A stretch of DNA of 64,000 bases from Erysipelotrichaceae bacterium (GTDB taxonomy: Bacteria > Bacillota_I > Bacilli_A > Erysipelotrichales > Erysipelotrichaceae). Shown here in pieces: positions 59,304 to 64,000 of the stretch (position 1 is the first letter of the stretch; each line of letters begins with the position of its first letter). Under the pieces are notes generated by a model. That model was not told where the DNA came from, did not search any database, and saw only the letters and a list, made by a program, of their open reading frames with translations. The stretch is from positions 281,863-345,862 of the forward strand of contig JAFRKI010000002.1 in the NCBI GenBank assembly GCA_017431825.1, read 5' to 3'. A program made the position numbers and the translations under genes.

Positions 59304-60320
59304 TTAACTATATAAATCCAATTTCTTGGATGCTGTTTGCACTAATTCCTGAACTTCGGCATCATTCTCAAGATTTAATTCCGCAATTGAGCTATTGATG
59401 TCCTTGATTACACCCTGATTTATATAACTCAGCATATCACTATACTGTTTTCTAGTATCATTTGTTTCAATTAGAAACTGTCTATCCAATACGGTCTGCT
59501 TTGCTTCCTTGAATTCATCGGTTATTGCAGTTACTAATAGATCCGTCTGATACTGATTATTGCCTTCCTCTATGAATGCATAATCTTGTAAGCATTCAAC
59601 AAACTTGCCCGTTGTTAATTTATCGAAGACTTCCATCCAGGAATCATGACTCATGTGCCATTTTTGCTTATCCCTGTTATTGTAGTAATATATTTCATCG
59701 AAGTTAACAAGAGTGCATGCCATCATTGATGAGAGAGCCATAATTGCATATAACACGTCACCCCTATTGTTACATGTTTCATTCATAAACACTTTAATCA
59801 TCAGTTTTAATACTGTGTTTTCACTGGAAATAAGCTCTCTATACTTTTCTTCAGAGTACTCTTTGCCAATTTTCCTTGAATCAAGCATATCTTTATAATC
59901 TTCTAAAACATTGTCAAACTTATAGAAAGTTTCGTTTTCATTAACGTCTAAGATTGTTTTTGCAACACCCTTAATATCATCGCTCATTTTTTTCAATTCT
60001 TTATCGATGATATAAAAACCGGCAACTGTCGAACATAAATTTGCTATGCCAACAATTGAACTGAATTTAAGTAACGCACCGCTAATTTCTGCTATCTTAT
60101 TTAAATCAACTGCGGAATTATTTAGTTTTTCTGCATTTTTTAGGAGAGATTGCGCTAAGTTTTGAACTTCTTCTTTAGAATCTTTGTTTGATTCCTTAAT
60201 AATTATTTTGGCAAAGTCTTTATATTTTCCTTTTGCCTGCCTAGTGACAACTTCAAAAACCTTTTTACCGTATTTGTTCACAAACTCTTCCATGGTCATC
60301 TCTATTGCTTTGTTTGCCAT
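59304..60320 (-). CDS. Unknown helical protein with membrane-inserting segments
   Basis: 338 residues from MANKAIEMTMEEFVNKYGKK; GGTGGAGG upstream supports this ATG, not the one ten codons earlier. Strongly helical: N-terminal amphipathic helices, a hydrophobic stretch at about 85-108 (SSIVGIANLCSTVAGFYIID) followed by KELKKMSDDIKGVAKTIL, a second at about 180-195 (LYAIMALSSMMACTLVNF). Such hydrophobic helix plus K-x-M-x-x-x-I pattern recurs in helical pore-forming or membrane-acting effectors, but I cannot name a family. AT-rich. One base after the stop of the preceding gene. Confidence 0.78.
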   Translation of the reverse strand: MANKAIEMTMEEFVNKYGKKVFEVVTRQAKGKYKDFAKIIIKESNKDSKEEVQNLAQSLLKNAEKLNNSAVDLNKIAEISGALLKFSSIVGIANLCSTVAGFYIIDKELKKMSDDIKGVAKTILDVNENETFYKFDNVLEDYKDMLDSRKIGKEYSEEKYRELISSENTVLKLMIKVFMNETCNNRGDVLYAIMALSSMMACTLVNFDEIYYYNNRDKQKWHMSHDSWMEVFDKLTTGKFVECLQDYAFIEEGNNQYQTDLLVTAITDEFKEAKQTVLDRQFLIETNDTRKQYSDMLSYINQGVIKDINSSIAELNLENDAEVQELVQTASKKLDLYS

Positions 60321-60321
60321 A

Positions 60322-60921
60322 TCAATCCTCCACCTCGCTTTGCGGTGCATTCATTAACATATCTAGATATAAGAGCACTAGTAAAAAATCAACGAATAGA
60401 ATTTTATTGTACTTAATATCGTAATCTGTTTTTCTGTTACTTTTATGCAAATCTTTATATGTCTTACTTTCTTTTAATCTGCTTATGGTTGATTTCAGAT
60501 AGTCCATCGAGAGATCAAAACTGAAAGTCTTTTTATCTATAAGACAATAATGATATAAAGAAACAAAGATTCTACTCACATTTTTAAGAAGGTCAATATT
60601 CGCTGCTTTTGCTTTCTTAATTTCCTTAACAGTCGTTTTTAATTTGTTAAAATACTTCTCTTCTCTGGAGCCTTTAATAAGTTTAAAAGAGGCCGCCATT
60701 TGTAGTCTTTCGGCAAAAACATCATAAAGGTCAACTTCCTTTACTGTATTTTTAATGCAAAACGCCTCAATGTAACTGCATACCTTTTCAATGTAATTCT
60801 TCTTTGTAACATCATCCTTAGTAAGATAATCAAAGGTAATTACCTCATTACTAAATTCTTTTAATTCATCGAAATAATTTTCGTTTAGGTTTTCAATGAT
60901 ATCTATTATTTCGGTTTTCAT
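60322..60921 (-). CDS. Unknown helical protein of the HNH island
   Basis: 199 residues from MKTEIIDIIENLNENYFDEL; AAAGGAGGGG upstream gives a strong SD. Predicted to be all helical and charged, with KLKTTVKEIKKAKAANIDLL and a hydrophobic C-terminal stretch KILFVDFLLVLLYLDMLMNA just before the end. No recognised domain. Follows the 52-residue gene and is followed after one base by the membrane-segment protein, so the three are surely co-translated. Confidence 0.75.
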   Translation of the reverse strand: MKTEIIDIIENLNENYFDELKEFSNEVITFDYLTKDDVTKKNYIEKVCSYIEAFCIKNTVKEVDLYDVFAERLQMAASFKLIKGSREEKYFNKLKTTVKEIKKAKAANIDLLKNVSRIFVSLYHYCLIDKKTFSFDLSMDYLKSTISRLKESKTYKDLHKSNRKTDYDIKYNKILFVDFLLVLLYLDMLMNAPQSEVED

Positions 60922-60949
60922 CGTTCCCCTCCTTTTAATTCGATTCTCA

Positions 60950-61108
60950 TTAAAGCGTTTTATAATCGATCCCCTCTTCATTGCATAGATCCTCAAGAGT
61001 AACTGTGTCGTTTAAATCAACGCTTTTCAGTGCCTCTTCAGCAGCTTTTAAGTCTTCAATATCTTCAGGTAATTCTATGCATTCTTTTTTTGTTTTGTTG
61101 TCAGTCAT
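60950..61108 (-). CDS. Small acidic protein, first gene of the HNH island
   Basis: 52 residues, ATG at 61106-61108 with GGAGG six bases upstream. Starts MTDNKTKKECIELPEDIEDL, continues with Ala/Glu-rich helix KAAEEALKSVDLND and ends EEGIDYKTL. Two cysteines, net negative charge. Sits in the antitoxin, regulator or leader-peptide position ahead of three larger genes. No family recognised. Confidence 0.7.
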   Translation of the reverse strand: MTDNKTKKECIELPEDIEDLKAAEEALKSVDLNDTVTLEDLCNEEGIDYKTL

Positions 61109-62333: not shown

Positions 62334-63608
62334 TTATTCAAGTTCTTCTACCCATTCGCCGTTTTTATCAGCGACCCAGCAATCTATTCCTATCCGATAC
62401 CATGTGTAATCATCTTCTTTTACAGTTTCGAAATAAGGTAGGATGTTTCCTTTTTCAACTCTGCCCATGAGATTGCCTGATGTTGATGGTTCGCTCCTTA
62501 ATCTGATTGAATCTGCTAATATGCAGATATATTTCATTCCAAGGTCATCTACTTTATAATTGCTAACTCTTAATGTTTCTTCGTCTAAAGTTATGTCGTT
62601 ATCAAGTATATAACTTATATCAATTCTTCCGGTTCTGCCATTATATATAACCCAAGCTTTACCATCACATAATTCTGTAGCCTTATCAAAAACAGAATCT
62701 ATAATAACGTTGCCATTAGTATCTATATAGCCCCATTTTCCATCTTTTTTTACTGGGGCTATACCTTCAAAGAAATCGCCACCATCATCATACCCTTCAA
62801 CTATTACCCTTCCATTTGAATCAATATAAGTGGTGTTTTTACCATCTTCATACGAAAACCTGGCGATATTAGATGTAAAGTTTCTAGCCATCATTTCTTC
62901 GCTTACATTCAAGAGATTATAACTGCTTTTGTTAAGTACAACATAGCCATCAATATAGCCATTCCCTTCGCTTATACCGCCGTCTTCATAAAGATATGAT
63001 TTGATCAGATAGGTATAGCTCTGGTCCGTGTATGCTGCATCATTTTCTACTATACCAAATGTAAAATCATCAACATAAAACAAATACATTGTGCCGTCAT
63101 TTTTAACAGTAAAATGTTGTTTTGGTCCAATCGCCCCATAAGTCTTAATAGTAGGTTCTACTGAATAATCGCTATTTAAATAAAACCATCCTTCACGGGA
63201 ATTAGGACCAAGATTATTATAAGGGCTGACAAAGAATAAACACATATCATTAATACCCTTATCAACTTTAAAATAGCTTTCGTTATTAATCTGAACCTTC
63301 AGATTTCCCGAACCGTCCAAAACACCGATTAATCCTTTTTTTGACACAATCAAACCACCGTTTTCATACAATTCATACGGAGTATTAACGTTTCTTATAA
63401 ACTCATTTTCAAGATAATCGATATTTAAATGTTTATTACAGTTAAAGTCAACTGTTATATCATCAAATTCAAATACTGGATCAACGACCCATATTTGTGA
63501 ATAATCAATTGTTTTATCCAATTCAGAATCTGATCCGCTTTCGACTGTCTTATAAGAACAGGAGCAAATAAGACATATCAAAATTAGAAACAATAAAAAC
63601 CTTTTCAT
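62334..63608 (-). CDS. WG-repeat and SH3-domain lipoprotein
   Basis: 424 residues. Lipoprotein signal MKRFLLFLILICLICSCSYK. Middle contains WG-type beta repeats: YIDSNGRVIVEGYDDGGDFF, then EGIAPVKKDGKWGYIDTNGN and VIIDSVFDKATELCDGKAWV. The C-terminus is a bacterial SH3 domain (ILADSIRLRSEPSTSGNLMG, GNILPYFETVKEDDYTWYRI) of the wall-binding sort. Probably surface-exposed. AT-rich against the adjoining permease gene. Its ATG (63606-63608) lies inside a hairpin. Confidence 0.88.
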   Translation of the reverse strand: MKRFLLFLILICLICSCSYKTVESGSDSELDKTIDYSQIWVVDPVFEFDDITVDFNCNKHLNIDYLENEFIRNVNTPYELYENGGLIVSKKGLIGVLDGSGNLKVQINNESYFKVDKGINDMCLFFVSPYNNLGPNSREGWFYLNSDYSVEPTIKTYGAIGPKQHFTVKNDGTMYLFYVDDFTFGIVENDAAYTDQSYTYLIKSYLYEDGGISEGNGYIDGYVVLNKSSYNLLNVSEEMMARNFTSNIARFSYEDGKNTTYIDSNGRVIVEGYDDGGDFFEGIAPVKKDGKWGYIDTNGNVIIDSVFDKATELCDGKAWVIYNGRTGRIDISYILDNDITLDEETLRVSNYKVDDLGMKYICILADSIRLRSEPSTSGNLMGRVEKGNILPYFETVKEDDYTWYRIGIDCWVADKNGEWVEELE

Positions 63609-63633
63609 ATTTTAATGATAATGTATGAAAAGG
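63600..63633 (-). terminator. Hairpin spanning the WG lipoprotein start codon; likely permease terminator
   Basis: CCTTTTCATA / TATGAAAAGG, 10-bp perfect inverted repeat (63600-63609 and 63624-63633). On the minus strand it is followed by TTTTTATTGTTTC. The lipoprotein ATG is in the 3' arm; a TATCAT (63615-63620) lies six bases before that ATG. Confidence 0.6.
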
Positions 63634-63669
63634 CTGGTTTTCTATAGTATTGTTGATAATTATGACTAC

Positions 63670-64000
63670 CTATTCTACCGACTTAAGTGATTCCACCATC
63701 TTTATTTCCCTTAACGGCTTCATCTCAAAGAGGAAGACTATCAGGGTAAAGCCGATGGTGATGATGAAAGCCAGCGAATATGACAGAACCTTTATGTTCA
63801 TTCCGAACATGACCATCTCCATGTTTATGACGTTCATGATGAAGTGGTGTTCAAGAGTGCCCAAAGGTATGCCGATAAAAGAACCGATGATACTCAGGAT
63901 CATGATCTCCTTGAAGATGTAGGTGTTGACTTCATGACTGTTGAAGCCGAGGACTTTTAAGGTGGCTATCTCCCTGATCCTCTCGGAGATATTGACCTGG
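63670..64000 (-). CDS. FtsX-like ABC transporter permease, C-terminal part
   Basis: 110 residues visible; the N-terminus is beyond the right edge. QVNISERIREIATLKVLGFN followed by YIFKEIMILSIIGSFIGIPLG is the conserved FtsX/MacB permease loop and helix; two more membrane helices follow, and the stop is at 63670. Probably part of an ABC exporter of the antimicrobial-peptide or lipoprotein type. Higher GC than the lipoprotein gene next to it. Confidence 0.9.
   Translation of the reverse strand, partial: QVNISERIREIATLKVLGFNSHEVNTYIFKEIMILSIIGSFIGIPLGTLEHHFIMNVINMEMVMFGMNIKVLSYSLAFIITIGFTLIVFLFEMKPLREIKMVESLKSVE

Follow-up and report, generated by a model that had tools for sequence, protein, structure and literature searches.

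This locus raises the question of how a gene may be expressed when its start codon lies within a hairpin that resembles the transcription terminator of the gene before it. The locus is found in the window, i.e., the whole stretch of 64,000 nucleotides that was analysed, which is part of a 363-kb contig (C14) of the 1.68-Mb genome (G000) of an uncultured and probably gut-dwelling bacterium of the Erysipelotrichaceae. The features concerned are listed below by their positions in the window, and all of them lie on the minus strand.

63670..64000, minus strand: 3′ end of the gene for an FtsX/MacB-type ABC permease (Pfam FtsX, E 8e-15), with the stop codon TAG at 63672-63670.
Upstream of the hairpin, minus strand: run of TetR, ABC ATPase and permease genes, the permease being the last (TetR and ATPase named by eye).
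63639..63644, minus strand: possible −35 box TAGAAA (4/6 match), 18 nt before TATCAT, which is given little weight (see below).
63624..63633, minus strand: 5′ arm of the hairpin, CCTTTTCATA, read from the sequence.
63610..63623, minus strand: hairpin loop of 14 nt, CATTATCATTAAAA, read from the sequence.
63615..63620, minus strand: presumed −10 box TATCAT, in the loop, exactly 6 nt before the ATG.
63600..63609, minus strand: 3′ arm of the hairpin, TATGAAAAGG, read from the sequence and holding the ATG of the lipoprotein gene (63608-63606).
63591..63599, minus strand: T-run TTTTTATTG, read from the sequence, presumed U-tract of the terminator and at the same time codons 4-6 of the lipoprotein gene.
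62334..63608, minus strand: lipoprotein gene, 424 aa, with an MKRFLLFLILICLICSC signal, WG repeats and SH3_3 (domains searched; lipobox assigned by eye).

Read along the minus strand, the stop codon of the permease gene is followed after 36 nt by the hairpin and after 61 nt by the ATG of the lipoprotein gene. The two arms (63633-63624 and 63609-63600) form a perfect inverted repeat of 10 bp with an AT-rich stem, to which computed folding added a G-U pair at the base, giving 11 outer pairs and −12.3 kcal/mol. The features expected of an intrinsic terminator were thus present, namely a stable hairpin located shortly after the permease stop and UUUUUAUUG directly behind it, and the same T-run is read as TTT TTA TTG in the lipoprotein gene. 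A preliminary description of this DNA had reported a 10-bp inverted repeat and a T-run behind the permease gene, an ATG inside the 3′ arm with the T-run as codons 4-6, and a TATCAT six bases before the ATG. The repeat proved to be exact (63633-63600), the positions of the ATG (63608-63606) and of the T-run (63599-63591) agree, and the TATCAT was found at 63620-63615.

The hairpin has a defined geometry and is non-random. Of 20,000 dinucleotide-preserving shuffles of the 125-nt region, 2 produced a perfect stem of 10 bp or more followed by TTTTT. In the 363-kb contig, a search of both strands for such strict hairpins (perfect stem, 10 bp or longer, loop of up to 20 nt, TTTTT behind) revealed 10, of which 7 lie within 90 nt after a stop codon on the same strand and 2 lie deep in genes. 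It would therefore be very improbable that the hairpin is a coincidence in AT-rich DNA; the AT-richness of the lipoprotein gene and the two equally strict hairpins deep in genes speak for this reading, but the rarity of such a structure among composition-matched shuffles speaks against it. A consensus scanner called no terminator at the hairpin, its loop limit being 8 nt and the hairpin loop 14 nt, and Rfam gave no match at the gathering score between 63000 and 64000. A lax terminator finder produced 452 matches at −8 kcal/mol in the contig, of which 300 lie deep inside genes, and for this reason our main claim rests on perfect stems with TTTTT. We also considered that the inverted repeat could be an operator bound by a protein over the −10 box and the start codon, with no RNA element involved. 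The palindrome flanks the −10 box, which is a usual position for a repressor, but this exact repeat pattern occurs just once in the whole genome, the T-run behind it and its location 36 nt past a stop codon are terminator-like, and the TetR-like gene upstream is preceded by a different palindrome (by eye). An operator is accordingly a highly improbable explanation.

Computed folding was then compared for the RNAs of different origin. In the read-through RNA, the three bases of the AUG were unpaired with probabilities of 0.005, 0.001 and 0.000, whereas the values were 0.90, 0.86 and 0.15 for an RNA with the AUG at its 5′ end (0.83, 0.64 and 0.52 for a longer one). By computed pairing only, the AUG thus follows the pattern of a switch set by transcript origin, being paired in the long RNA and free in the AUG-start RNA, and the earlier suggestion that read-through mRNA hides the ATG while a leaderless transcript frees it agrees with these values. 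We propose, with moderate confidence, that the hairpin acts as intrinsic terminator for the ABC-transporter run and that the lipoprotein gene has a leaderless promoter of its own, with the −10 box in the hairpin loop. In this mechanism, RNA derived from the permease gene would fold the hairpin and mostly stop at the U-tract, which would end transcription of the upstream run, and any read-through RNA would have its AUG hidden in the hairpin. Transcription of the lipoprotein gene would start at the A of the ATG, and the resulting RNA would neither terminate nor hide its start, because the 5′ arm is absent from it. The same DNA would thereby serve two roles, as a terminator and as the start region of the next gene. 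The transcript start, the termination and the translational difference between the two RNAs are what we infer from the DNA.

The leaderless part of the proposal was examined on the starts of many genes. The longest ORFs, with a minimum length of 303 nt, served as genes in place of the output of a gene finder. This gave 318 in the contig of the window; we dropped starts too close to an end and those whose first ATG was over 90 nt from the beginning of the ORF, and 312 of the 318 were kept. For every spacing upstream of the ATG, we then tallied the hexamers that differ from TATAAT in no more than one base. The results showed that 30 of the 312 starts carry such a box at a gap of 6 nt, compared with a mean of 5.2 at the eight neighbouring gaps (P 3.5e-14), and 1.0 gap-6 boxes would be expected from internal ATGs in this contig. 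The same peak was found in two other members of the genus, G003 (20/356, P 1e-7) and G035 (14/155, P 4e-6), and was not significant in four more (G034, 2/146; G014, 3/120; G012, 1/86; G017, 3/102). With the genome of the window included, 3 of 7 sampled genus members have the peak, and none of 3 genomes from another family of the order has it (G038, 5/296; G051, 1/167; G042, 1/180). Across G000, G003 and G035, a Shine-Dalgarno (SD) motif precedes 0 of 64 gap-6 starts and 419 of 738 starts with no box at gap 6 or 7. This absence is mostly mechanical and carries little weight as support, since the box occupies the SD window; in the control, an SD motif precedes 5 of 50 starts whose box lies at gaps 3, 4, 5, 8 or 9 (P 0.014 against 0/64). 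It is therefore the gap-6 peak that provides real evidence for the class. Within the boxes of the class, T is over-represented at −15 and at −17. For −35 boxes the mean best match was 3.0, practically the value of shuffled sequences (2.98), and without enrichment of this box the TAGAAA at 63639..63644 was given little weight. We conclude that the leaderless class in this genome is likely real; if it holds for some members of the genus, standard annotation of start sites may misplace starts there.

The lipoprotein gene fits this class in the position of its box more than in the quality of it. Its TATCAT lies at gap 6, the same gap as the peak of the genome, and among 823 starts TATCAT occurs twice at this gap (one of the two being the lipoprotein gene) against 0.12 per neighbouring gap. 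On the class matrix, which was built from boxes selected for at most one mismatch to TATAAT and owes part of its sharpness to this selection, TATCAT scores 4.5 and the TAAAAT directly before the ATG (gap 0) scores 7.5. The −10 region has no T at −15, and in the flank from −17 to −13 only 11 of 63 other class members score below the lipoprotein gene. Its own −10 box is a below-average match to the class. With 33% GC, the gene is the third lowest of 318 in a contig with a median of 47%, and because it is AT-rich, statistics drawn from native genes may apply less to it. Two further genes at 59304-60996 of the window (contig 341166-342858) have 31-34% GC against the same median. The AT-richness of the lipoprotein gene and of these two genes suggests recent acquisition.

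The weak box bears on two other accounts of the gene. According to the first, the hairpin terminates and shields, no leaderless promoter exists, and low expression of the lipoprotein comes solely from read-through RNA, perhaps with the hairpin melted or cleaved. Besides the poor −10 match, this account is favoured by the result of the consensus scanner, which detected one promoter-like site (TAGAAA-18-TATCAT) where shuffles yield 1.8, and by the 96 of 318 contig genes that were classed with neither signal. We nevertheless consider it unlikely, as TATCAT sits exactly at the gap of the peak, and in the read-through RNA the AUG is buried and preceded by no SD motif, the latter being a weak test in that an SD motif has little room beside a box at this distance. 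According to the second, the competing box TAAAAT, which would place the transcript start inside the ORF, is the actual −10 box, and translation begins at the TTG of codon 6 (63593) with AAAAGG as a weak SD motif. TAAAAT indeed outscores TATCAT and AAAAGG lies 6 nt before the TTG, but the signal peptide M-K-R-F-L-L would lose its K-R charge, which would be unusual for a lipoprotein, and a TTG start with a short SD motif would be needed. These points make a TTG start distinctly improbable. Taken as a whole, the interpretation given in the preliminary description was upheld in part: the structure and the folding stood, and the leaderless pattern invoked there was backed by the sharp −10 peak at gap 6, whereas the weaker-than-average −10 box and the better-matching TAAAAT at gap 0 count against it.

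Analysis of hairpins near the other leaderless-type starts placed the lipoprotein gene in a wider setting. Leaderless-type genes were defined by the lack of an SD motif together with a box at a gap of 6 or 7 nt, which gave 43 in the contig, some of them by chance as judged from the neighbouring gaps. With the lax finder, a terminator-like hairpin was found near the ATG (U-tract between −70 and +60) in 22 of these 43, and in 10 of those 22 the U-tract begins 13-20 nt before the ATG. In these ten genes the U-tract and the −10 box nearly touch, and the −35 region would fall in the stem. Among the 22, only the lipoprotein gene has the U-tract inside its reading frame. Strict hairpins near the start were also more frequent in the leaderless-type genes of the contig (10/43) than in those led by an SD motif (12/179, P 0.003) or those with neither signal (6/96, P 0.008). 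This link was not seen in G003 (2/41 leaderless-type against 21/247 SD-led) and in G035 (2/21 against 8/79), where the lax finder gave 8/40 and 4/21, respectively, near leaderless-type starts. The lipoprotein gene represents the extreme case of a close packing common in this contig, which the counts do not establish as general for the genus. Pairs of leaderless-type starts also occur head to head in contig C14 of G000: the divergent starts 64893(−) and 64916(+) (L051) are 22 nt apart, with one palindromic ATTATATAAT providing −10 boxes on both strands, and more such pairs lie at 109392/109430, 147588/147644 and 308987/309030.

It is doubtful, in our estimation, that the fusion of a terminator with a leaderless start is a recurrent design in this lineage, the link between leaderless-type genes and strict hairpins being seen only in the contig of the window. 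In such a design, a terminator across the next start would cost nothing, since the 5′ arm precedes the first base of a leaderless RNA, and would insulate the next gene in both transcription and translation. Two genes would be further forms of such a design. One encodes a prepilin peptidase (L050:13600-13680; G000:C14:53632; A24_N_bact from residue 9 on, E 1.4e-26). No ATG, GTG or TTG other than one ATG precedes the family motif, and this ATG sits in a hairpin of 13 pairs, within its 6-nt loop; the U-run that follows the hairpin forms part of the codons of the gene. This start has neither an SD motif nor a gap-6 box, so the leaderless explanation does not simply transfer to it, and inspection by eye of 29 loci from relatives, with identities of 30-38%, showed no such hairpin at their starts. 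The other lies behind the orthologous permease gene in G009 (C104, L029:1110-1210). It has TACAAT at gap 7, and its codons 15-24 contain a strong terminator-like hairpin of −16.1 kcal/mol with a U-run; its start is uncertain because the product has no Pfam match. An ORF in G034 with its ATG in a hairpin was rejected, as it looked spurious by eye.

Among 36 genomes of the genus, no orthologue of the lipoprotein was found: at E 1e-15, matches came from 3 genomes, namely the protein itself and two matches over 88 and 64 residues. With a 521-nt query, DNA matches were obtained in 24 of the 36 genomes, and only that of the own genome passes position 334, where the permease gene ends. The hairpin is thus untraceable through relatives. 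The 3′ flanks of the related permease genes vary (by eye), containing terminators of their own, operon neighbours or tRNA-like sequence. Of the 38 named loci with related permeases, 17 are labelled Erysipelotrichaceae, including the best match (78% identity), and the remaining ones bear labels such as Bacillota, Oscillospiraceae and Clostridiales, many being from ruminant guts. The case concerns one gene with no conservation. If the proposed mechanism is true, the translated RNA would be the one starting at the AUG, a single hairpin would close one message and guard the next gene against read-through, and leaderless initiation would let neighbouring transcription units overlap.

The proposed arrangement can be compared with several known systems. 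Like ordinary intrinsic terminators, the hairpin follows a stop codon by 36 nt and precedes a U-tract; unlike them, its 3′ arm and U-tract double as the opening codons of the following gene, its stem is AT-rich and its loop has 14 nt. In IS10 and IS50, inward read-through RNA folds over the transposase start codon and protects against read-through. The read-through RNA of the lipoprotein gene would likewise cover the start codon, whereas IS10 and IS50 have a mobile-element context and no known terminator function. In the portions of the surveyed literature at hand, we found no terminator with a leaderless start in its 3′ arm and no study on leaderless genes in Erysipelotrichaceae. For TA-led leaderless genes, the sections consulted of Zheng et al. 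(2011, PMC3160421) describe a TANNNT that precedes the start by about 12 nt, with the form TAtAAT in Firmicutes, where the cases are concentrated in Lactobacillales and Mycoplasma; the string 'Erysipelot' has no occurrence in the main text. The lipoprotein gene resembles these genes in having a presumed −10 box at the leaderless distance, and an overlap with a terminator is not described in those sections. In the lysozyme gene e of phage T4, where a comparable logic operates in translation, according to the part of the report seen (PMC3014915), long early RNAs fold an inhibitory structure over the start region, and RNAs from late promoters located just upstream do not contain the 5′ portion of this structure. 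The likeness is that the start is covered in the long RNA and free in the short one, here by computed pairing only. The T4 hairpin is not described as a terminator in that part, and the short T4 RNA retains its ribosome binding site, whereas the short RNA of the lipoprotein gene is presumed to be leaderless and a U-tract follows the hairpin. As far as these partial accounts extend, a terminator fused to a leaderless start would represent a variant beyond the descriptions of both T4 gene e and the TA-led genes.
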